This document shows, one piece after another, positions 472 through 12,071 of a DNA stretch of 64,000 nucleotides (its first letter is position 1; the number at the start of each line of letters is the position of its first letter). The position numbers and the translations under genes are program-made. The notes beneath the pieces are model-generated. The model did no database searches. It was not told the origin of the DNA and saw nothing but the letters and a program-made list of their open reading frames with translations. This DNA is from Bacteroidales bacterium (GTDB lineage Bacteria; Bacteroidota; Bacteroidia; Bacteroidales; ML635J-15): assembly GCA_031275085.1 (NCBI GenBank), contig JAISPG010000074.1, forward strand, positions 1 through 64,000, in the 5' to 3' direction.

Positions 472-2241
472 TTAATTAAGTTTTGCACCCTTTAAAGCCA
501 GCCAGCAATCCTCTTTCTTTGCCCATTCTCCATACAGATCTCCCGGTGCATTCTCTTTTATAAAATTCTCCACATTAACCATCATATCATATAGTCTATC
601 CTTTAAATCATCAGGCACAGTCTGTTTTTTCCATATCTCATTCAGATTCACAGACCCACCGTCAGTACAGGATAGCAATGCCAGAGTATAAGGCACTGTT
701 ATATACCGCATATCGCCGATGGAGTGTGGTTTTATGCCATAAATCTGTTCCGCAGTCCGGAAAAGCTTTGCTTTTGCTATTGTTTCTTCAAAATACCTGT
801 TATCCGGAATTTCAGGAAGATTGTATTTTACAAAAAATGCGTAGTTTTTCTGACTTCCTCTTACCACAATATGCGGACCTATTACCAGTTTATCTTCATC
901 ATAAACCTCATTCCAGGTATTAACGTATTTGGCCAGTTCTTCCTTGGTTAAAAACTGATTTCTGGGATTCCGCAAATCAAATGCTTTCTGTTTTGCTTTT
1001 GTGGTTCCTTCGTTCGCCCGGGCATTTTTATACTGTCCGCGGGCTCTTTCATAAAACCATCTTGTCTGATGTGACTGCCCCTGAACTGGTGGCGCCCAGA
1101 TATTGCGGGAGAGTTTTTCAAACTCTACATGGAATGGTGCATTGGAACTGAGGTCGGACACTGAGACTTTATTCTGGGTGTTTGCATACTCTGCAATGCG
1201 GCTTACTATTTCAGCAAAATTGCTTTTGTCTTTGATAACACTTAATTTTACCTGTACAAGAATATCGGTAATATCGGCCTTATCTTTCTTTGAGGTATGG
1301 TATATGGAGGCTGTAGTCTGCCCGCCGTTCACTATCTGGAAATCTTTTACTGAACTGATATAATAACCGTGTTCGTTTTGTCCCAGTTTCACATCGTCTG
1401 CTGTTGCTGCAATACCGTTGTTGTATGCCAGAAACATGTGAGGTTCGTCTATAATGGTAGTCCTGATTCCTTTGTTTATCTTACCGGTAAACTGGAGAAA
1501 TGATCGTACATTTTGCTCGAGTAACCGGGCACCATACTGCTCGTAAATGGATGCAAGGGCATCTCCGGGTATCAGTGCAAGGTATGACTGGTATTCTGCG
1601 TTATCGGTTTCTGCCCTGATGCAGGGTACCGGATAGCCCTGCTGCTCAAAGTCGATTTCTATAGGGATATATTCTTTTTCGGATATGTTGTAAAGGTAGT
1701 TCAGGTCAATAATCCTGAAATAAACCGGAATACCGTTGTGTTCCCGTGGTGTGGGGATTTCTCCGTTGTATATACCGTCTGTGATGATAAAGATATTTAT
1801 CCTGACCAGATTGTCCTTCAATGCCTGTGAAGCATTAAGAGTATGCGCAAAATCGTATATCTGTGATGACTCTTCAAGACCGGCAGCATATTCCCTGTTT
1901 TGGGTTTTACGCAGGAAAGACATAATAAGTGTGGAGGCATTGTCTGTTTCTGCCTTTTGTACACGTACAGGGTTTTCTGTACATTTAAATATGGTAATAA
2001 AAAGATCGAGAGTTTCGTAATTATCAGCAATAGCCCAAGCATTAATCTTGTGCCTGTTGCGGGCTACAGTATTTGCATGATGATATATTGTAACATCGGC
2101 TGTTTCTCCTCCATCTGTCAGAAGAGAGATAGCATGTGTGGTAAACAGCTGTTCGAGATTACCTGTTTCACCTGAGAGTTGTTCGGATTTAATATCCTGC
2201 AACATATCGGTGTAAAAAAGGTTTAGTTCGTTCTGGCGCAT
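472..2241 (-). CDS. AIPR family abortive-infection protein
   Basis: This 589-residue protein carries the signature of the AIPR (abortive infection phage resistance) family: a YNNGI segment at residues 273-277 and FQIVNGGQT at 301-309, followed by a conserved helical region ending near residue 400. AIPR proteins occur in phage-defence operons, usually beside Z1, MORC or methylase genes; their biochemical activity is not settled. It is the last gene of the seven-gene operon and its ATG directly abuts the TAA of the upstream ABC ATPase gene, so translation is probably coupled. Residues 23-29 (LSGETGN) are also found near the N-terminus of the Z1 protein in the same operon. Full length for the family. 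I am confident of the family, not of the mechanism. Confidence 0.88.
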   Translation of the reverse strand: MRQNELNLFYTDMLQDIKSEQLSGETGNLEQLFTTHAISLLTDGGETADVTIYHHANTVARNRHKINAWAIADNYETLDLFITIFKCTENPVRVQKAETDNASTLIMSFLRKTQNREYAAGLEESSQIYDFAHTLNASQALKDNLVRINIFIITDGIYNGEIPTPREHNGIPVYFRIIDLNYLYNISEKEYIPIEIDFEQQGYPVPCIRAETDNAEYQSYLALIPGDALASIYEQYGARLLEQNVRSFLQFTGKINKGIRTTIIDEPHMFLAYNNGIAATADDVKLGQNEHGYYISSVKDFQIVNGGQTTASIYHTSKKDKADITDILVQVKLSVIKDKSNFAEIVSRIAEYANTQNKVSVSDLSSNAPFHVEFEKLSRNIWAPPVQGQSHQTRWFYERARGQYKNARANEGTTKAKQKAFDLRNPRNQFLTKEELAKYVNTWNEVYDEDKLVIGPHIVVRGSQKNYAFFVKYNLPEIPDNRYFEETIAKAKLFRTAEQIYGIKPHSIGDMRYITVPYTLALLSCTDGGSVNLNEIWKKQTVPDDLKDRLYDMMVNVENFIKENAPGDLYGEWAKKEDCWLALKGAKLN

Positions 2242-4143
2242 TTATAAAAGCTGGTTTAGAGTTTGTCCGGTTTGTGTGTATACTTCGTTTAAAATATCTG
2301 ATTCGTTTAACTGAACATTCTTTTTATCTTCCGGGGCGGCTAAATAAATACAGGCGCCTTTACACATGGCATATACTGATTTCTTTGTATCATTTAAGAT
2401 TTGTTCCTCCTTATTTTCAGAAATCAATATCCGGTTTATTGGTTTACATTCAGCATTAAGTAGTTTTTTTGTTCCGTTGTATTCAAGATATCTCAGACCT
2501 TCAAGCAATTGAAATTTATACCTGTATTTATTACCTTCGTAATCCTCTTTTTCATAAAAGAGAAAAAACGGATTATCATCTGATACTTCAATAATTACTT
2601 TTGAATTGACTTTATTCAATTCTTCAAGCACTGAAAATCCGGTTAATAGTTCTTCTTTAAATACAGGCGATTTGAGATCATGGTGGGATAATGGATTTAA
2701 CAATCTGTTCTTTATTCTGTTAAGGTCCTGAATATATGGAAAAATTAATTCATATTTTACCATTAATTTATCAAACTGATCAATCAGCTTTTGAAGTCCG
2801 GCAGGACGGAATACTGCACTTTTACTACCTGCTGAGCCGCTGGGAGTAAAAAACCATGCTTCTTCATTTTCCTGTATGGTAAGCTGTGATTTTGAAACAA
2901 TAAGCTGACTCATTTCAATATCTGAGTTATCGTATCCGGGATGCAGCATATTTCCCGGCAGTATATTAAAAAACATTTGTTCAAATGCCTTACGCAGATA
3001 ATTGGCACATGCAGGATAATCACCATGTATCAGATGAAATTCTGCTCTTTCTTTATAGGTATCTGACTTGCGAATTAACGGACGTTCTTTTTCGCAGCTA
3101 TGGTTATCCACATAAAATTCTGCTTTGCTCCAGCTATCATCCAGATAGGTTTTGGCTACATTAAACCATTCGCGGTCGTAGGTTGTAAGGAATATCTGAT
3201 AATTACGTACAAAACTCTTTCCGCCAAAAAGATCGGGAGCAGTAAGGATTTTTATCAGAGGTATCCTGTTTGTCATATCGAGACCGATAAATATATCGTC
3301 GAGAAAAAGAATATTTAAATCGGTATCAGGTATGATGAACAGGTGAGCAAGGTAAACCGATATGGCCAGAGAAGTCAGACGGGCTTCGTTGAGTATATCA
3401 TCATGTTCCGGTAATTCTTTTCCAAACAGGGTTACTTTAAAGGATATTACGGGAGGAATAAGCATATCATCGGTTATTGTTCCGTCTGTATAACTGATTT
3501 TCAGGTCGCAATCTTTATGAAAATATTTTAGTAAATGGCTGGCTTTTTCTTCCAGCTCTTTAAATTGTGCTTCAGCATTGATATTGTAATCAGAAAGGTC
3601 TTCCTTATCAGGTGTTTTCCTGATTCTTTCCCACAGCTTTCTGAAAGCGACTTTATTACTGCCTTTTCCGGGTGATGCAACAGTCATTTCTGAAAATAAT
3701 CCATTTTCACCCAGAAAAAAAGAAAAGAGGTCGGGTGTCTGATTGTCAGAACGAAAATGTAGTCTGAGCAAATCGCGGTAACTGATAAATCCTTTGGTTA
3801 TTCCTGCTTCTGATATAACAGAAGTTGCAGCTGTGTTGGTTCTGGCTGCTTCTGACGAGAAATAATGCCCGGTATCATCATCGAGTGTGATATGTATATA
3901 TGGGCGCTCGGAGTTTTGCGTTTCATCGTAAAACATATTTTTCTGAAAGGGTTGTTCCGGATTTAGTGCCGAAATAAAAAAGTCTTTTATCGCTTTATAC
4001 AGTGAGGACTTTCCACTGCCGTTTTCGCCATATATCAACAGATTCTCTCCTCCGGGCAGTTCTATGGTGTACCGGTTTTCTTCCTTATCACCATTTACCA
4101 GAAAAGCTCTGTAGTTACTGATTTGAATACGTTTAATTTTCAT
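2242..4143 (-). CDS. RecF/SMC-like ABC ATPase of the defence operon
   Basis: This 633-residue soluble protein begins like RecF and SMC ATPases (ISNYRAF). The Walker A motif is GENGSGKSS at residues 39-47, an ABC-signature-like helix LNEARLTSLA lies at 251-260, and Walker B with its D-loop is NILFLDDIFIGLD at 277-289. The usual switch histidine is not evident; TTYDREW occupies that place. The C-terminal half is helical and unknown to me. There is no nuclease (TOPRIM) motif I can see, so it is not a classic OLD protein. The start codon lies inside the end of the Z1 gene (11-nt overlap), and its stop abuts the AIPR start. In context it is probably a DNA-sensing or loading ATPase for the restriction system, an inference from position. 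Confidence 0.8.
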   Translation of the reverse strand: MKIKRIQISNYRAFLVNGDKEENRYTIELPGGENLLIYGENGSGKSSLYKAIKDFFISALNPEQPFQKNMFYDETQNSERPYIHITLDDDTGHYFSSEAARTNTAATSVISEAGITKGFISYRDLLRLHFRSDNQTPDLFSFFLGENGLFSEMTVASPGKGSNKVAFRKLWERIRKTPDKEDLSDYNINAEAQFKELEEKASHLLKYFHKDCDLKISYTDGTITDDMLIPPVISFKVTLFGKELPEHDDILNEARLTSLAISVYLAHLFIIPDTDLNILFLDDIFIGLDMTNRIPLIKILTAPDLFGGKSFVRNYQIFLTTYDREWFNVAKTYLDDSWSKAEFYVDNHSCEKERPLIRKSDTYKERAEFHLIHGDYPACANYLRKAFEQMFFNILPGNMLHPGYDNSDIEMSQLIVSKSQLTIQENEEAWFFTPSGSAGSKSAVFRPAGLQKLIDQFDKLMVKYELIFPYIQDLNRIKNRLLNPLSHHDLKSPVFKEELLTGFSVLEELNKVNSKVIIEVSDDNPFFLFYEKEDYEGNKYRYKFQLLEGLRYLEYNGTKKLLNAECKPINRILISENKEEQILNDTKKSVYAMCKGACIYLAAPEDKKNVQLNESDILNEVYTQTGQTLNQLL

Positions 4144-7100
4144 CGGTCAGTATTTGGTAAATATGTTTAAATTCAGGAACAGTTGTTATATAATAAATTG
4201 CTTTTTTTACAGGATTATTGGATTCATTCAAAAGCTGATAGCATTTTTTCACCTGTTCGGTATCATTAGTAAACGTAGCAAGTTTTCCAAGTTCAGAAAG
4301 CACGCATAATTTATGTTTACCAAACACTTCAGGAAAATATATTTCGAAAATAGCTACGTCGAGCACATTTATAAAGTATGAATTTATTATTCTTTCGTCC
4401 CGTGATGCTTCATTTCTCCGCAAAAATTGTATACTTTTTACCAGCGTTGCTATCCCTGCATTGCCTTGAGCATGCGTAGTAACAGGAAATTCTTTAATGA
4501 CAGTTTCTGTTTTTTCTCCTTTGGCATCTATATTGTAAAAGGCAAAAAGGGCTGAGTTGAACAGTGCTGAGAGGTATTCTTCGGATATTCCTTCACTTTG
4601 TATGACAAGGCTGCTGTTGTCGGCAACAAACCCTGCTTTGTGAACAGTAAATTTCGACCCTTGATATATAGCAGGAGTTACAATACTTTTTACATTGATT
4701 TGTGCATCTCCCGCATTGACTACCTGAAAGTCAGCGTAAGGTTTCACCGTATATCTTCCAATGTCCTCTGCCCGTATAAGGGGAACGCTTCCGGGCAATT
4801 GTTCAGGGAGTGCTACTGCACGGGTATTATCTTCGTTTATCTGTTTGCTGTAGCTTATACTGATACCGTTGGTGTATATCAGAAAGAGATTGTTATTTAA
4901 TTTTCTGTTATTCTCAATGGCTCTGATTACGGCCTCGTGCAATCCGGCGTTCCTTTCATTTTTTTCAACAGTGAGGGGTACGTCAATATCTTCTTCATCA
5001 AGTTCTTCGGGATAATTCAGTTCTTTGAGGAATTGTTCATTGACTGCGTACTCAATCCTGACATCTTTTTCGATCCACGGGAAGCTGACTGCCAGACCTA
5101 CAAAGGGTATATCCGACAGGGCTGGCTGACTTTCGTCGGGTTGGGGGTTAAGCAGGTAGATCAATAACAGTCCCTGATTTTCGGTACGGGTCTTTTTAAT
5201 ACGGATAGGACTGGGTTTGTCTATTTTTGATGGATCTTTGATTTTTCCTTTTTTTATTGCATCATCCTTTGTATCCTGTAGTGCTTTTCCTATTTGATCA
5301 TCATCAAGATCAATATATTCATGCCGGGGGTCAATAATATGCGATTTTGCAATGGTATATATATCCATTTGCGGTTCTGAATCATTGCTACGCAGAGTGA
5401 GGCCGGCTTTAATATCTTCGGTTATTTTTATCTGTCTCCCTTCTGTATTATTAATTAATACAATAGTCCATTCTGCAAGCATCCTGTTTTCCTGCTGTGC
5501 TAGGATATAGTCAGTCATCAATTTTACATTGAATGAGGGCTGCCTGGTCTTATAGGAAGAAATAAAACTAATAACTGTATCAGCATTTACTCTTTGCCAT
5601 ACAAAGTGATTACGAAAACGTGCTTCTTTATTGGGTGCTCCATCAGGCAATCCCAGATTACTTATAAAGGGAAATACAAGATTGTAATTATCCAGATTCA
5701 CCGGATCGTTCTTTCTGAATGAATAGGTTTCTTCCAGTTTGCCTGAATAACTTAACTCCATAATCTTTTTATACCGGAACTTATTGGAAGCGGTTATTAC
5801 CAGTGATTCGGGAGATGTACGTACTTTAAGCCCATAATTGGCAGGAGTTTTATCAAGGTCGCCCATACGGTCGAACTCTGCACGCATTTCTTCAGTGGCT
5901 ACTGTTATGTACTGATACCACTTTCTGATTTCTACACTGGTAAACAGTCTGCACAGGTCAAGATATCCGGGACGAAATCCGAACCACCTTCCCATCTGCA
6001 TCAGAGTATCATACATTTTGGATGCACGAAGAAAATAACTGATTGTAAGTCCTTCGAGGGTAAGCCCCCGTGATAGTTTATTACCACCTATTGCTATTAC
6101 AGAAAGCCCTGTCTGACGATTATCGTAATAATCAAGCGGGCGGATATTTTTGTGAGTGAGACCTTCAACTTTATTATCTCCATGAACAGCACGGATTTCA
6201 ATTTTTGCCACAGCCGGATAAAGATGTGGTTCTATTTCTGTCCATGAAACAGGGCGGATTGAAGGATCGTTGACCGACGGGTTTTCTATAACCTCTTTTG
6301 TGACAGGCTCATATTCTTCCTGCCACAGTAGTTCCAATTCTCTCAGGAATGAGATGTCATTAAATTCTATAAGCCGGATATAGTCTTTTACTTCTTTGTC
6401 AACCAGCGATGCAATTATATCCTGCCAGCCTATAAATCTGGTTAAGTGTATCAGCATGGAACTGTGTTCTTTTGCCTGCCCCCTGACTCTCCTTGCGGCA
6501 CAGGACAGAAAAAAGCATTTAATGGCTTTATGAAGGCTTGGAGGGAGTTTTTCCGGTTTGTTATCATCTATTTTATGACCGTCTTTTATGTATGATTGAT
6601 AGTCATTGACTGTGCGGATAAGTGGTAGCGGATAGACCTTTTTTTCATAGTTTTCTATGGATTCTATTCCGAATATTTTTTCAGGTCCTATGTAATTGGA
6701 AGGTGCCGGAATGTTTACTATAAAGTTTTTCGGGAAAATATCTTTTCCGAGTGCCAGCGATAAGTTGTGCACGTTGTAGTCCAGTCCTTTTACATCCTCA
6801 TCGGTATATTGTTTAACGAAAATATTGGCATAGGGTGTTGCGGTATAGCCGATATAGGCACTTTGCTCGAAGAGTTTGAGCATAGAACGGATACAGGCAT
6901 TAATACCGGATACATAGTTTTTGCTGATATTAATTGAAGCGTTGTCAGCTTCATCATCTATAACAAGCAGCGGCAGGTTTTTAATCTGTTTTTTTCCGTC
7001 TTCCATTGTTTCTCCCCTGGTAGCAAGCCAACCCAGCAGATTTTTCATTACGGAAGTATTTTTCTTTATAACTAGTACAATGGGGTCATTTCCCCGTATA

Positions 7101-7801
7101 TTAAAACCGGAGGATTCTGAAATCCTTCGGTTAAAATCTCCGTTAATCTCATTGGTTGTGAGAGAGTGAGCAGCAAGATTCGGGTTAATTTTTCCTACTC
7201 CAATTCTGTTTGTGGTCTGGGTAAGACTTCGTGCGAACTGTGTATCGAATCCCAGGAATCCTTCGTCAATACGAAGCTGGGTTTGCGAACGGAGAGTATT
7301 GTGAATACCTGCAAGTACTACAATAAGTTTGTAGCCTGCATCAGCTGCCTTGCATATAAGTCCGATGTAGTTTCCTGTTTTTCCTGACTGTACATGCCCT
7401 ACAATAAGTCCACGTTTGTCAAACGGAACATTACTTCCGGGCCGTACCATTCGATCCAGAATATCATCCGTAAGATTATCTGTCTGATTGATAGTGTCAG
7501 GAGCATAATTCTTCAGTTCCAGTAACCTTCTGTACCGGTTCCAGAAATTCCATGCTATCTCCGATTTGGCACTTTTCACCCAGGGCACAGGTTTTTCATC
7601 GTCAAGTATACGGTACTGGTCGGAAAATATTGCGTATTGTGCTTCGAGTTCTTCTATGAGTGAAGATATTTCTTCTGCCGGTAAATTAAACATCAGATTT
7701 ACTCTCTCCACAGTACTTTTTATCAGTTCTGCATTGATATTTCCGGTTTCTCCGGAAAGCATTGTTATGCATATATTTTTAGCCTGTTCATGCTCTTTCA
7801 T
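4133..7801 (-). CDS. Z1-domain superfamily-2-like ATPase with unusual C-terminal extension
   Basis: This 1222-residue protein carries a complete Z1 domain, the helicase-like ATPase of MORC-associated restriction systems. Visible motifs are GHVQSGKT (135-142, Walker A), IDDEADNASI (281-290, DEAD-like box), YIGYTATPYA (317-326, motif III) and, in the second lobe, GGNKLSRGLTLEG followed by QMGRWFGFRPGY (arginine-finger motif). After the Z1 core come about 250 further residues (about 969-1222) whose phrases PLIRAEDIGRY, EYLSALFNSALFAFY and INSYFINVLDVAIFEIYFPE look like the target-recognition and tail regions of Eco57I/TaqI-type methylase-endonucleases. That tail could give site-specific DNA binding; this is an inference. 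The ATG overlaps the MORC stop as ATGA, and the end overlaps the ABC ATPase start. Proposed role: ATP-driven translocase or remodeller acting with the MORC ATPase. Confidence 0.88.
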   Translation of the reverse strand: MKEHEQAKNICITMLSGETGNINAELIKSTVERVNLMFNLPAEEISSLIEELEAQYAIFSDQYRILDDEKPVPWVKSAKSEIAWNFWNRYRRLLELKNYAPDTINQTDNLTDDILDRMVRPGSNVPFDKRGLIVGHVQSGKTGNYIGLICKAADAGYKLIVVLAGIHNTLRSQTQLRIDEGFLGFDTQFARSLTQTTNRIGVGKINPNLAAHSLTTNEINGDFNRRISESSGFNIRGNDPIVLVIKKNTSVMKNLLGWLATRGETMEDGKKQIKNLPLLVIDDEADNASINISKNYVSGINACIRSMLKLFEQSAYIGYTATPYANIFVKQYTDEDVKGLDYNVHNLSLALGKDIFPKNFIVNIPAPSNYIGPEKIFGIESIENYEKKVYPLPLIRTVNDYQSYIKDGHKIDDNKPEKLPPSLHKAIKCFFLSCAARRVRGQAKEHSSMLIHLTRFIGWQDIIASLVDKEVKDYIRLIEFNDISFLRELELLWQEEYEPVTKEVIENPSVNDPSIRPVSWTEIEPHLYPAVAKIEIRAVHGDNKVEGLTHKNIRPLDYYDNRQTGLSVIAIGGNKLSRGLTLEGLTISYFLRASKMYDTLMQMGRWFGFRPGYLDLCRLFTSVEIRKWYQYITVATEEMRAEFDRMGDLDKTPANYGLKVRTSPESLVITASNKFRYKKIMELSYSGKLEETYSFRKNDPVNLDNYNLVFPFISNLGLPDGAPNKEARFRNHFVWQRVNADTVISFISSYKTRQPSFNVKLMTDYILAQQENRMLAEWTIVLINNTEGRQIKITEDIKAGLTLRSNDSEPQMDIYTIAKSHIIDPRHEYIDLDDDQIGKALQDTKDDAIKKGKIKDPSKIDKPSPIRIKKTRTENQGLLLIYLLNPQPDESQPALSDIPFVGLAVSFPWIEKDVRIEYAVNEQFLKELNYPEELDEEDIDVPLTVEKNERNAGLHEAVIRAIENNRKLNNNLFLIYTNGISISYSKQINEDNTRAVALPEQLPGSVPLIRAEDIGRYTVKPYADFQVVNAGDAQINVKSIVTPAIYQGSKFTVHKAGFVADNSSLVIQSEGISEEYLSALFNSALFAFYNIDAKGEKTETVIKEFPVTTHAQGNAGIATLVKSIQFLRRNEASRDERIINSYFINVLDVAIFEIYFPEVFGKHKLCVLSELGKLATFTNDTEQVKKCYQLLNESNNPVKKAIYYITTVPEFKHIYQILTDEN

Positions 7802-9252
7802 AAGCTTTCGATTAGTTCGGGATATTCATTAAAAGGTTCAATAAGCAACAGTCTGTTTTTTGCCTGTTCTGGGGCATTATTATTGAGCAGGGATTTATAT
7901 ACAGTTTTTATTAAATCTGTCAGTTCCTTTGTGGGTGTTTTTTCATAGGGTCTGAAAAAGGAATCGGGGTTTTCGGATTCATTGATAACAATCAGGGGCA
8001 CAGGCAGTGTCTCTTCCAGTAGTCTGATAAGTGGCCGGAGGGTTTTGAGATCGTACTGTGCTATGAACGGATGCAGCTGATTGATTTCGTAATATCTTTT
8101 TCCGTCTTTCTGCATTTCTACCCAGACGGGTTCAAATTTGCTTGAGGTTGATCTGCGTTGCATTACTTTGCCTCTGTGCCTGTATACTTCAACGGCGTAT
8201 GCCCTTACTTCGGATGCGTAGGCTTTGAGCTGATCACGCAGACCTGCGGGAATTCTGGCAACTGATTTTTTTATGTCAATCTGCCATTCATTGTCGAGAT
8301 TATTTGGCAGGTCTATCATGATACGGGCAAGTTTACAGTGCTCTTCTTTGCGGAAGAGTCCGAGCCATCCGCCACTTACAAGCATCCGTTCGTTTCGGTA
8401 TACATAAAATCCCTGGTTTGCATTCCAGCCGCGTATCCCTTCTCCTTCTTTAAATTGTTCGGGGGTAAGTTTTGATTTGTGGGGAAGTACAAAACCGCGG
8501 GCTCTTACCTGTCCGTTACAGAGAGGTTCTTCCGGAAAGTTTTGTGTGGCATCGTGGGTAATCATAAATGGATTCCATGCCGGGATTCCTCTATCACTAA
8601 AATATATTTTTACTTTATTATTTTCGATATAACGGTGAAATACTACTGAAATATGATTTTTTACAAGTTGCATGGTTTCAAGAAATTTTCTCTTTGCTTT
8701 TGTGTCATCTACCGGTGTGTCTTTGAGCAGATGGTCCATGTCCTGCCATATAACGATGGTGCCTGAGGTGAGTGCCTCTATTTGTTCCTGCCAATTGCCG
8801 GGAGGCAGTGAAGCTATAAGTTCCCACTTTTTTGCATGGTGATATATGTAATCAAGATCCCATGTCCAGAAACAGGAATCGTTGTTTTGTTTTTTTGATA
8901 TGACTGTGTATTTTCTGCACTGAGAGAATGATGCTGTCTTTAGTCCGAATCCGAAACGCCCGAGGTCGCGGGCATCGCGTTCTTCGTTGGGGTCTTTGGA
9001 GCCGGGACGCATGGCATTGATAAGTTCGTCATTATCCATTCCACAACCGTCGTCTTTGATGGCAAATGTAGTATCTGCTCCTTTCCAGTCGAAATCAATC
9101 CATATATTCCGGGCTCCGGCAGATATGGAGTTATCGAGTATATCAGCTACTGCGGCTTCCATGCTGTAACCTACTGCCCGGAATGATTCGAGCATATTGG
9201 CAGCAATGGGTTCAGCACTGGTGGTTTGATATTGTGAATAGTTTGTTTTCAT
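7798..9252 (-). CDS. MORC/MutL-like GHKL ATPase
   Basis: The 484-residue protein has the full GHKL ATP-binding set: N-box VADILDNSISAGA, G1 box DDGCGM, and G2 box GRFGFGLKTAS, all in the first 105 residues. A second domain follows with the S5-like pattern ending in WQIDIKKS, whose lysine would contact the ATP gamma-phosphate as in MutL and Hsp90. This arrangement is that of prokaryotic MORC-type ATPases of restriction-modification operons, the group from which eukaryotic MORC proteins are thought to derive. Such proteins dimerise on ATP and clamp DNA. The stop overlaps the Z1 start (ATGA at 7798-7801), and the start overlaps the end of the nuclease gene by four bases. Confidence 0.88.
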   Translation of the reverse strand: MKTNYSQYQTTSAEPIAANMLESFRAVGYSMEAAVADILDNSISAGARNIWIDFDWKGADTTFAIKDDGCGMDNDELINAMRPGSKDPNEERDARDLGRFGFGLKTASFSQCRKYTVISKKQNNDSCFWTWDLDYIYHHAKKWELIASLPPGNWQEQIEALTSGTIVIWQDMDHLLKDTPVDDTKAKRKFLETMQLVKNHISVVFHRYIENNKVKIYFSDRGIPAWNPFMITHDATQNFPEEPLCNGQVRARGFVLPHKSKLTPEQFKEGEGIRGWNANQGFYVYRNERMLVSGGWLGLFRKEEHCKLARIMIDLPNNLDNEWQIDIKKSVARIPAGLRDQLKAYASEVRAYAVEVYRHRGKVMQRRSTSSKFEPVWVEMQKDGKRYYEINQLHPFIAQYDLKTLRPLIRLLEETLPVPLIVINESENPDSFFRPYEKTPTKELTDLIKTVYKSLLNNNAPEQAKNRLLLIEPFNEYPELIESL

Positions 9253-10031
9253 TCTGTTTTTAAGGTTTTGTAAATCTGATGTGCCGATACTGTCCAGTTT
9301 ACCTGTATCACGGTTTGTATATTTCTCTTTGGCGAAAGTTTCTTGTATGGATTATTAATAATATTTAATTGAGGTATATCGTTAACGTTGTTTACAATAA
9401 CAAGGTAATAGTCTGTTTTCATGGCACGGGCAGTATTCCATTCTTTTTCTGTAAATAATATTCCTCCCTTCTGATCTGAAACACCTTTTATTTCTATCGC
9501 CAGTTTTATAGTATCATTACCTATTTCGAAATCATAACCGCATCCATGATTACGTACATCTTTTATTTCTGCATTTTCGGAAAAATAATCTTTATTGGAT
9601 TTGTACCAGTCTATAAAATATTCTTCTGCTTTGTTTCCTGTAATTCCTCTTGTTTGGGGAGAAATGTAATCATCATACTGGTTTTCGGAAGAGACAACTG
9701 ATGTTATTTTATTTATATCAGACTGTTTGTTATTATTTAAAATATCATTAATAATACTTCGTAAAGAATATTCCTCCAGATTACCTACAGCATCCACAAC
9801 CATAATACGGCTTACAGTTAATTTTCGTTGATACCAGCCCGCACGGTATTCGAAAAGGGGATCAAATTCGTCGCGCCAGTTTTTAATTGTAGCAGGTTTT
9901 ATTCCTAGAATATCACCTATTTTTTGGTGAGTTTGCCTCTGATTACCAAAACCAAGATTTGCATAAGCCAGATTATTAAATTTAGCCAGATAAAATGCGA
10001 CATATAATCCTAAAATATTATTCTTCTTCAT
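9249..10031 (-). CDS. HTH protein with DUF3883-type PD-(D/E)XK nuclease domain
   Basis: The 260-residue protein has two parts. Residues about 30-55 (HQKIGDILGIKPATIKNWRDEF) read as a helix-turn-helix. Residues about 128-225 match the DUF3883 pattern: GNKAEEYFIDWY, GCGYDFEI, IEIKG and KEWNTARAMKTDYYLVIV. Glu136/137, Asp167 and Glu180-x-Lys182 fit a PD-(D/E)XK nuclease active site. It is therefore the likely double-strand restriction endonuclease of the operon. The HTH may mediate DNA binding or autoregulation, as in C proteins; neither is shown. It overlaps the methylase end by 14 bases and the MORC start by four. The nuclease assignment rests on motif reading only. Confidence 0.72.
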   Translation of the reverse strand: MKKNNILGLYVAFYLAKFNNLAYANLGFGNQRQTHQKIGDILGIKPATIKNWRDEFDPLFEYRAGWYQRKLTVSRIMVVDAVGNLEEYSLRSIINDILNNNKQSDINKITSVVSSENQYDDYISPQTRGITGNKAEEYFIDWYKSNKDYFSENAEIKDVRNHGCGYDFEIGNDTIKLAIEIKGVSDQKGGILFTEKEWNTARAMKTDYYLVIVNNVNDIPQLNIINNPYKKLSPKRNIQTVIQVNWTVSAHQIYKTLKTE

Positions 10032-11652
10032 TGTTATGAGGTATTATATCTTTCACTATTTCCGCTATCTGATATGCCAGATAAGGAGGCACCGCATTAC
10101 CTACCTGATGAAACTGGTCTGTACGTCCTCCGTAAAAATAATAATTATCCGGAAATGTCTGAACGCGTGCAGCTTCTCTTACAGTAAAGCTTCTCACCTG
10201 ATCGGAATCATAATGGATAAAATAATGTCCGTCCTTGGATATATGGCTTGTTATGGTTGTTGCCGGAATATCCGGCATTTGTACCCTGAACCGGTCATTA
10301 AATACGCCGGATTCTGCATTTTCATGATCAGGAAGTAAATCTTTTCCTGCCTTTTTGTAATCCCCCATTTTGGGAAAAGTCCCGTATATCTGAGAATAAC
10401 GTGCCGCAAAAAGGTAGCGTTTGAGATCCTGTGCCATATGTTTTCTGGACTCATGATGCAGAATACCTTTTAGTTTTTTATCTGCAAACCAGTTTCTCAG
10501 AGGATGTCCTTTTATAAGAAAAGCACATTCTGCCGGAATAAATTCTTTTCCCATGGTTTCGGGAAATTCTTTTGTTTTCCCATTTTCCTCCATCCCCTGG
10601 TATTTATTAATTTCCTTATTATACCGTAATATATATTTCATCCATTCTTCAGGCGAATCTTTTAATTTTTTATAGTATCTCTTTTTCTTAGGATTTCCGT
10701 CCTTGTCAGTAATAATTTCAGAATGAGTAAACTCTCTTGATAATCCACTACGTATTTTTGGAAGATTACCAATTACTGACGAAAGGCTGACCTCTTCTCT
10801 TTTAACAAGTATTCTTCCCGGAGCAGACATATCTTCCCGCAGACCCAGCAGAATTACACGGTGTCTTTTTTGTGGAATACCATATTCCTCGGACTTTATA
10901 ATAAAATCTTCAGGCTTAAATTCATGCTCTGAAAAAAGATCGGTTTGACGGGGACTTGTGGTAAGGGAAAAAATTCTGTATCGTATTGGTTGTATGTTTT
11001 CTATTTCTTCATTTTCTGCGAGACATGCGTTTACAGGATCGGATAAATCATTTTTTATTTTCCGGAATATTGATTCTGTTTCTGTTTTGGCAGACAAAAG
11101 ACCTTTAACATTTTCCATTACAAAAACAGCAGGCCTGTGAACAGCAATTATGCGCAGATACTCTTTATATAATCCTACTCTTTTATCTCTCGCTTCATCC
11201 AGTGTTTTTTCCTTTCTCCTTGAACGGCCTACAAGAGAATATGCCTGACAGGGAGGCCCTCCGATCAGAAGCCAGTCCGGATTACCATTTAATGCATGCC
11301 GTATTTTAGAATCCACTTCTTTATTCGTAAGACCATTTTTATCCTCCTCATCCGGTGTACCCAGTGTTCCGCAACATACTTCCTCATCTGCCATTGCAGC
11401 CTGTAGAGGATGTCTTTTATAGAGTTCTTCAATAGTTATTTCTCTCCTTACAAATGAATAATAATCTTTAGGTACCTGACAATAAGAAAACTGTCTGAAA
11501 AAACTTCTTAATTTTAATGTCTGATATGCATTATAATCTTTTTCTATTGATAGTTTTATTTTGAATATACGATCTCCGTTTTCATCCGTCAGCGAAGAAA
11601 AGCCCTCTCCCAATCCACCGGGGCCAGCAAAAATATCGATTATTGGTATCAT
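10018..11652 (-). CDS. C5-cytosine DNA methyltransferase
   Basis: All main motifs of 5-methylcytosine methyltransferases are present in 544 residues: motif I IDIFAGPGGLGEGF (5-18), motif IV GGPPCQAYS with catalytic Cys135, motif VI ENVKG (180-184), motif VIII KRHRVILLG, motif IX region VQTFPDNYYFYG and motif X QVGNAVPPYLA. It transfers a methyl group from S-adenosylmethionine to cytosine C5 and protects host DNA in the restriction system. The protein is longer than typical (about 330-450), mostly between motifs VIII and IX, the target-recognition region. The recognition site cannot be read from sequence. The start is fixed by ATGA overlap with vsr and by motif I beginning at residue 5. Confidence 0.95.
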   Translation of the reverse strand: MIPIIDIFAGPGGLGEGFSSLTDENGDRIFKIKLSIEKDYNAYQTLKLRSFFRQFSYCQVPKDYYSFVRREITIEELYKRHPLQAAMADEEVCCGTLGTPDEEDKNGLTNKEVDSKIRHALNGNPDWLLIGGPPCQAYSLVGRSRRKEKTLDEARDKRVGLYKEYLRIIAVHRPAVFVMENVKGLLSAKTETESIFRKIKNDLSDPVNACLAENEEIENIQPIRYRIFSLTTSPRQTDLFSEHEFKPEDFIIKSEEYGIPQKRHRVILLGLREDMSAPGRILVKREEVSLSSVIGNLPKIRSGLSREFTHSEIITDKDGNPKKKRYYKKLKDSPEEWMKYILRYNKEINKYQGMEENGKTKEFPETMGKEFIPAECAFLIKGHPLRNWFADKKLKGILHHESRKHMAQDLKRYLFAARYSQIYGTFPKMGDYKKAGKDLLPDHENAESGVFNDRFRVQMPDIPATTITSHISKDGHYFIHYDSDQVRSFTVREAARVQTFPDNYYFYGGRTDQFHQVGNAVPPYLAYQIAEIVKDIIPHNNEEE

Positions 11653-12071
11653 AGGTTTTGCTTTATCTCAGTGGCAAGATTCTGTAAAGTAGTTTCCTGT
11701 TTATCTTTTTTCAGCTCACATTCCCACACAACAATTACTTTCCAGCCTGAATCCATAAGCTGCTCTCTTTTCTTTATATCATTTTCCACGTTTCCGTTTA
11801 TTTTATTCAACCACCATTCCGTACGTGTTTTTAGAACAACAAAATATCTGCAACCTTCATGTTTATGCCAGAAACATCCATGAACAAATATAACCGTTTT
11901 ATATTTTTTTAATATAATATCCGGCTTTCCTGGCAGGTTCTTATCATGAAGTCTGAAACGAAACCCCTGTGAAAAAAGATATTTTCTGACCAGAATTTCA
12001 GGTTTTGTATCTTTACCCTTTATCCGGCTCATATTATAACTTCTTGTTTCTTTTGAATGTACATCTGCCAT
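11649..12071 (-). CDS. vsr: Very short patch repair (Vsr) endonuclease
   Basis: The 140-residue protein matches Vsr throughout: an N-terminal RSYNMSRIKGKDTKPE segment, then PGKPDI, VHGCFWHKHEGC and KRTEWW-like text (KTRTEWW). Glu25, Asp51, His64, Phe67, Trp68 and His69 fall at the same numbers as the active-site and intercalating residues of E. coli Vsr; Thr63 is Val here. Vsr nicks at T:G mismatches produced by deamination of 5-methylcytosine, and in MORC systems a Vsr-like nuclease may take part in restriction. It is the first gene of the operon. A purine-rich AGGAGA lies about 12 bases before the ATG. The stop overlaps the methylase start. Confidence 0.93.
   Translation of the reverse strand: MADVHSKETRSYNMSRIKGKDTKPEILVRKYLFSQGFRFRLHDKNLPGKPDIILKKYKTVIFVHGCFWHKHEGCRYFVVLKTRTEWWLNKINGNVENDIKKREQLMDSGWKVIVVWECELKKDKQETTLQNLATEIKQNL

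Follow-up and report, generated by a model that had tools for sequence, protein, structure and literature searches.

A Z1 motor protein with a C-terminal target-recognition-like domain and a partner ATPase in a MORC-Z1 operon of a Bacteroidales bacterium

How MORC-Z1 systems of the MZA type choose the DNA on which they act is not answered in the literature found, while eukaryotic MORC relatives act on chromatin. An operon that bears on this question lies on the minus strand (472-12071) of a 64,000-nucleotide stretch of a Bacteroidales bacterium (contig JAISPG010000074.1 of assembly GCA_031275085.1), which is referred to as the window in the following. In order, the operon encodes a Vsr endonuclease, a C5 methyltransferase, an HTH-NOV_C protein, a MORC-like ATPase, a Z1 protein, an ABC-type ATPase and an AIPR protein. 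An earlier note made from the sequence alone had proposed that the last 250 residues of the Z1 protein form a module for target recognition. After the analysis described here we consider it probable that the operon is an MZA-like restriction or defence system, in which the Z1 motor would carry its own target-recognition domain (TRD) and a dock for the ATPase, both derived from Eco57I-type enzymes. The argument relies on the following features; labels such as L078 denote the loci compared in this analysis.

4133-7801, minus strand: Z1 protein (MzaC family), 1222 amino acids in a single open frame (PF10593, E = 1e-76), SF2 motor with C-terminal predicted TRD and ATPase-linked extension
5027-7801, minus strand: Z1/SF2 core, residues 1-925 (MzaC models stop at 924 and 792)
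4457-4885, minus strand: predicted TRD of TaqI/BseCI/CamA type, shortened, residues ~973-1115 (sequence profiles and predicted fold)
4331-4381, minus strand: helix SYFINVLDVAIFEIYFP, residues 1141-1157, counterpart of YFEQIIDGMVYELYF in Eco57I-type enzymes (alignments)
4136-4330, minus strand: C-terminal extension, residues ~1158-1222, proposed ATPase dock (full extension in 3/3 ATPase-linked control enzymes; co-variation with the ATPase)
2242-4143, minus strand: RecF/Rad50-like ABC ATPase, 633 amino acids, partner of the tail (its start overlaps the Z1 stop region by 11 nucleotides)

The Z1 protein has kept its SF2 motifs (GHVQSGKT at residue 135, DDEAD at 282, TATP at 320 and QMGRWFG at 602). 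The match to the MzaC model ends at residue 924 in PADLOC and at 792 in NCBIfam, and plasmid-borne Z1 relatives can be aligned only up to ~928; therefore the tail from residue 930 onward is an addition, and the claim that it lies outside the Z1 core is correct. Positions 4133-4897 correspond to residues 969-1222, and the phrases that had been likened to the specificity domain of Eco57I-type enzymes follow each other in the proposed order (PLIRAEDIGRY from 1007, EYLSALFNSALFAFY at ~1078-1092, NSYFINVLDVAIFEIYFPE at ~1140-1158), with PLIRAEDIGRY paired with 'pllkgkdikky' and FEIYF with 'YELYF' in the alignment. Pfam detected TaqI_C (PF12950) on the tail alone with E = 0.0033, and a profile of 12 C-termini of Eco57I-type enzymes reached 86.3 bits (E = 6e-25) on the tail of the window, whereas none of 5000 shuffles exceeded 9.9 bits. 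A profile of four C-termini whose members had been picked through the ATPase and not through the tail still scored 40.4 bits versus 9.0 for shuffled sequence. In the alignment with this four-member profile PLIRAEDIGRYTVKPYADFQVVN faces 'ikpllkgkdikkykiefknryviit', ~54 profile positions are then skipped and the alignment resumes to the end. A comparison of the profile of eight Z1 tails with that of 17 Eco57I-type C-termini covered 253 columns (99.8%, E = 2.9e-29). The tail profile also matches M.BseCI (E = 4e-27), CamA (2e-21) and MmeI (1.5e-5), and these matches run to the helix preceding the last part and stop before the extension. When the tail was compared with 198 genomes of this order, it matched the C-termini of long proteins, the stronger matches being Eco57I-type enzymes, most of them with TaqI_C. 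No match in the PDB was obtained with single-sequence phmmer, either for the tail or for the whole Z1 protein, and a scan of viral contigs with the tail alone yielded no relatives. These results confirm that residues ~973-1222 share ancestry with the specificity domain and C-terminus of Eco57I-type enzymes.

The predicted structure is in line with this homology. An AlphaFold2 model of residues 913-1222 built from 57 rows reached a predicted local distance difference test of 89.5 and a predicted template modelling score (pTM) of 0.85, and Foldseek placed the DNA methyltransferases CamA (3.7e-7) and M.BseCI (4e-5), with their DNA-bound TRDs, at the top of the PDB matches, followed by PglX, the PacII S subunit, HsdS and BpuSI. 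The 57-row input contained TaqI_C proteins; when the model was rebuilt from no rows but the eight Z1 tails, pTM was 0.80, the secondary structure was unchanged and CamA and M.BseCI again took the lead. The model thus supports a TRD fold of TaqI/BseCI type, and such a fold was recovered by profile search as well as by structure prediction. The module that had been proposed for the whole segment is restricted to residues ~973-1115, whereas the final ~65 residues form an extension of their own, which is linked to the ATPase encoded downstream.

The ATPase shows Walker A (GENGSGKS), signature (LNEARL) and Walker B (LFLDDIFIGLD) motifs in the alignment together with a Rad50 match (9e-9), and its C-terminal part is conserved. 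The overlap with the Z1 stop region recurs in the same kind in L078-L080. In the sample of the same order, relatives of the ATPase were found in ten other genomes, in 7 of which the tail sits on the adjacent upstream protein; in the remaining ones a tail-bearing enzyme is also nearby. Among plasmids, the sole tail match and the best ATPase match lie side by side on one Nostoc plasmid. Since the 13 rows of the tail alignment were too diverse to scan the collection with, the ATPase alignment was used, which also removes selection on the tail. Scanning 84,980 species plus viral contigs gave 83 loci, 81 of them with an upstream frame, and in 75/81 the protein directly upstream of the ATPase carries the tail, a proportion that covers this ATPase family and not ATPases overall, since the scan ATPases were first met beside tails. 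The tail-bearing bodies were 7 Z1 proteins, 39 Eco57I-like enzymes and 29 others, and for five of the six exceptions an Eco57I-type enzyme is encoded farther upstream.

To what extent the extension belongs to the ATPase can be judged from a control of 74 TaqI_C enzymes drawn regardless of the ATPase. The match ended at the YELYF region or slightly past it in 65, none of which adjoins the ATPase, while 3 of the 9 enzymes with a full extension do (Fisher p = 0.0013). A strictly ATPase-specific extension was rejected, with 6/9 full-extension enzymes having no ATPase directly downstream; the extension is therefore a regular and non-exclusive companion of the ATPase. Furthermore, ATPase distances track extension distances among Eco57I-type pairs (Mantel r = 0.54, 0/2000 permutations) and are uncorrelated with TRD distances (r = 0.03), although the latter are near saturation and the absent correlation may be noise. 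As the ATPase distances follow the extension and not the TRD, we infer that the extension docks the ATPase and that the TRD varies with the target.

Such a variation is seen in one lineage. Between L078 and L079/L080 the identity amounts to 88-91% for MORC, 88-90% for AIPR, 73-77% for the Z1 core and 76-78% for the C-tail, compared to 39-40% for the TRD and 57-58% for the methyltransferase; L079 and L080 share 84% in the TRD and 79% in the methyltransferase. TRD and methyltransferase have diverged jointly in the L078 lineage, which suggests that they may read one site. Several points weigh against a DNA-reading Z1 tail, in addition to the full-extension enzymes lacking an ATPase and the saturated TRD distances. 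The joint change comes from the L078 lineage as the single case, and the methyltransferase of L081 is 65% identical to that of the window, yet the TRD just 32-38%. With 18.1 bits the TaqI_C match misses the Pfam gathering score of 26.5, and the TRD is incomplete: ~45-55 residues are gone in all Z1 tails, so that recognition could be altered or lost. This loss is also what would be expected if the tail were mainly a protein-docking adaptor, with a shortened TRD that positions the ATPase without reading DNA and with targeting by MORC, NOV_C/HTH, Vsr or the methyltransferase. We regard this as unlikely, even if the co-variation of extension and ATPase would fit, as would the use of the same pair by TIR-TPR, FRG-TPR and GmrSD proteins, several of them without a methyltransferase detected nearby. 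An adaptor does not account well for a TRD-like part that has retained its fold and, in L078, is less conserved than any other stretch amid a conserved protein and conserved neighbours, while the methyltransferase diverged too.

If the Z1 motor carries its own TRD, the question arises how this operon relates to known MORC-Z1 systems. In order, PADLOC matched MzaB (1e-102), MzaC (3e-168) and MzaE (8e-90), and the NCBIfam equivalog cut-offs were missed for all three (409 of 850 bits for MzaB, 658 of 1500 for MzaC and 388 of 1050 for MzaE). The other genes are:

472-2241, minus strand: AIPR protein, MzaE family (PF10592, E = 1e-93; MzaE models)
7798-9252, minus strand: MORC/MutL-like GHKL ATPase, MzaB family (domain and MzaB models)
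9249-10031, minus strand: protein with HTH and NOV_C (DUF3883-like), candidate nuclease (PF13020, E = 2e-14; varies among relatives)
10018-11652, minus strand: C5 DNA methyltransferase (PF00145, E = 2e-44)
11649-12071, minus strand: Vsr endonuclease (PF03852, E = 2e-35)

A description from 2008 (PMC2292703) covers operons that combine MORC or paraMORC with DNA methylases, Vsr and a distinct SF2 helicase carrying a DThhQXuRhFG motif, and one from 2022 (PMC9523054) covers a Z1/PD-(D/E)XK/C5-methyltransferase system that also contains AIPR and MORC and in which the PD-(D/E)XK gene was counted as core. The window operon shares with the latter and with MZA (mzaABCDE) the MzaB-like MORC, MzaC-like Z1 and MzaE-like AIPR proteins, the C5 methyltransferase, Vsr and the gene order. 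It differs in that the sigma-factor MzaA is missing and neither Pfam nor PADLOC detected a PD-(D/E)XK subunit of the MzaD/DUF4420 type among its genes; instead of MzaD, it has the C-terminal TRD of Z1 and the RecF-like ATPase.

This exchange is a general feature of the tailed Z1 operons. Eight are known to us, the window and L078-L084, all of which encode one or more C5 methyltransferases, MORC, a tailed Z1, the ATPase and AIPR, and the DUF4420 gene is present in 0/8. In six tail-less relatives and a Hymenobacter plasmid a PD-(D/E)XK gene of ~340 amino acids takes the place of the ATPase, which is absent there, and in both tail-less operons scanned this gene is DUF4420/MzaD. The PD-(D/E)XK gene is thus found at the same place in tail-less operons and is absent from tailed ones, and therefore the module appears to be a replacement of the MzaD-like subunit. 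As no such tail is found on the Z1 proteins of canonical MORC-Z1 operons, the earlier suggestion that it explains how MORC-Z1 machines find their target can apply to the tailed subtype, where binding is predicted, and not to MORC-Z1 systems generally. Searching 395 genomes of the class with the tail of a relative revealed no additional tailed Z1, so the subtype is rare.

The ATPases of the eight operons form one clade (97/89) in a set that is otherwise mostly linked to Eco57I-type enzymes. A single origin of the tailed Z1 is therefore supported by the ATPase tree and is not resolved by the tree of the shorter C-tail. The clade also bears on the idea that the tail is a passive, non-functional remnant of a fusion with a decayed Eco57I-type enzyme beside its ATPase gene. 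Eco57I-type enzymes are indeed the only sequence source found, but fused proteins have been maintained in eight systems from two diverged groups, the frame is intact in 7/8, and the C-tail and the ATPase motifs are conserved, which makes a mere remnant very hard to believe. The frame that is not intact belongs to Cyclobacterium qasimii (L084:6113-9986), where the Z1 gene is split across three frames by frameshifts or sequencing errors. L082-L084 form a separate subgroup with two C5 methyltransferases each, as expected for an asymmetric site.

Tailed Z1 proteins lacking a methylase partner, which the earlier note had named as evidence to the contrary, were not among these operons: a C5 methyltransferase occurs in 8/8. 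This is relevant for the state of the DNA that might be read. The TRD fold is silent on it, and with Vsr and C5 methylation present one could think of a type IV-like sensor that recognises modified instead of unmodified DNA, but a cognate methyltransferase in every operon fits self protection better, and we consider such a sensor quite improbable. For a Z1 motor with its own TRD we infer the following course of events. TRD and ATPase would have been acquired together, as one linked module, from enzymes of the Eco57I type and taken the place of the MzaD-like subunit. The C5 methyltransferase would mark a site in the host DNA and the Z1-TRD protein would bind this site when it is unmarked, and binding may license the Z1 motor together with the MORC clamp and the docked ATPase. 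These would then pass foreign DNA or an alarm on to an effector, presumably AIPR, for which Vsr or NOV_C would be candidate nucleases, and this effector may act on the foreign DNA or on the cell. A subtype with an identifiable TRD on the motor makes the target choice of MORC-Z1 directly testable.

Readers of DNA are arranged differently in related systems. CglI and NgoAVII share the SF2-Z1 motor protein and the C5 methyltransferase (PMC4267653), but there a separate PLD-B3 R protein reads the site and, in CglI, directs the motor (PMC4267653), whereas in the window protein the predicted reader is part of the motor protein itself; by Pfam, none of the seven operon proteins has the PLD nuclease and B3 DNA-binding domains of the CglI/NgoAVII type. 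The TRD fold is shared with BREX PglX, CamA, M.BseCI and MmeI, in which it sits on the methyltransferase polypeptide. A precedent for TRDs within a large, multi-domain restriction protein, parts of which are helicase-derived, is DndH (PMC10853773), which differs by its HerA/FtsK ATPase and inactive methyltransferase and has no Z1, MORC or RecF-like partner ATPase (PMC10853773). The closest counterparts are the Eco57I-type (type IIG) TaqI_C enzymes with an ATPase (L013, L019, L088 and others), where TRD, extension and downstream ATPase are homologous; in contrast to them, the window protein has a Z1 motor as its body and no N6 methyltransferase domain, Pfam detecting just Z1 and the weak TaqI_C. 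Large SF2 helicase genes are located upstream in the Eco57I-type operons L013, L016, L017 and L019, and no dedicated PADLOC model was strong on their ATPases. Neither a Z1 protein bearing a TRD nor the pair of tail and ATPase on TIR-TPR proteins is described in the open literature searched, the scope of which did not include subscription papers and preprints.

Within the operons, the gene content between methyltransferase and MORC varies. This slot holds NOV_C in the window (9249-10031), unassigned proteins of 481 and 626 amino acids in L078 (2687-4129) and L079 (2982-4859), respectively, and an HNH protein in L082, and is empty in L081, from which the NOV_C gene is missing.

The portability of TRD, extension and ATPase is a larger result than the identity of the tail itself. 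Pfam architectures combine TIR, TPR and TaqI_C in L123 and L138 and FRG, TPR and TaqI_C in L109. It seems somewhat more plausible than its opposite that TRD and extension together with the RecF/Rad50-like ATPase are a general two-protein sensor cassette wired to differing outputs, which would comprise modification/restriction enzymes, MORC-Z1, TIR or FRG effectors with TPR arms and GmrSD nucleases. The occurrence of the pair on at least five kinds of body suggests a plug-in immune sensor, whose carriers are split among unrelated systems in current defence catalogues. If this is true, TRDs serve as recognition modules in abortive-type immunity too, beyond restriction enzymes.

GmrSD_N (DUF262) proteins that end in a TRD-like segment and the extension and are followed by the ATPase occur in L099 (6884-9988), which matches PADLOC NsnA, and in L112 (6884-9973). 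Proteins that consist of TRD plus extension stand right before the ATPase in cyanobacteria and Desulfonema (L053:11818-12834, L090:8841-9998 and L141:8953-10053), those of L090 and L141 being stand-alone TaqI_C proteins by Pfam. The TIR-TPR-TRD and FRG-TPR-TRD proteins are from Poribacteria (L123:7086-10001, L138:6543-10001 and L109:7212-10001), each followed by a related ATPase. At several loci of this phylum the surroundings of the TIR/FRG gene yielded no methyltransferase, and others have an Eco57I-type enzyme close upstream. The many TIR/FRG-TPR-TRD loci in Poribacteria point to an apparent expansion in the phylum.

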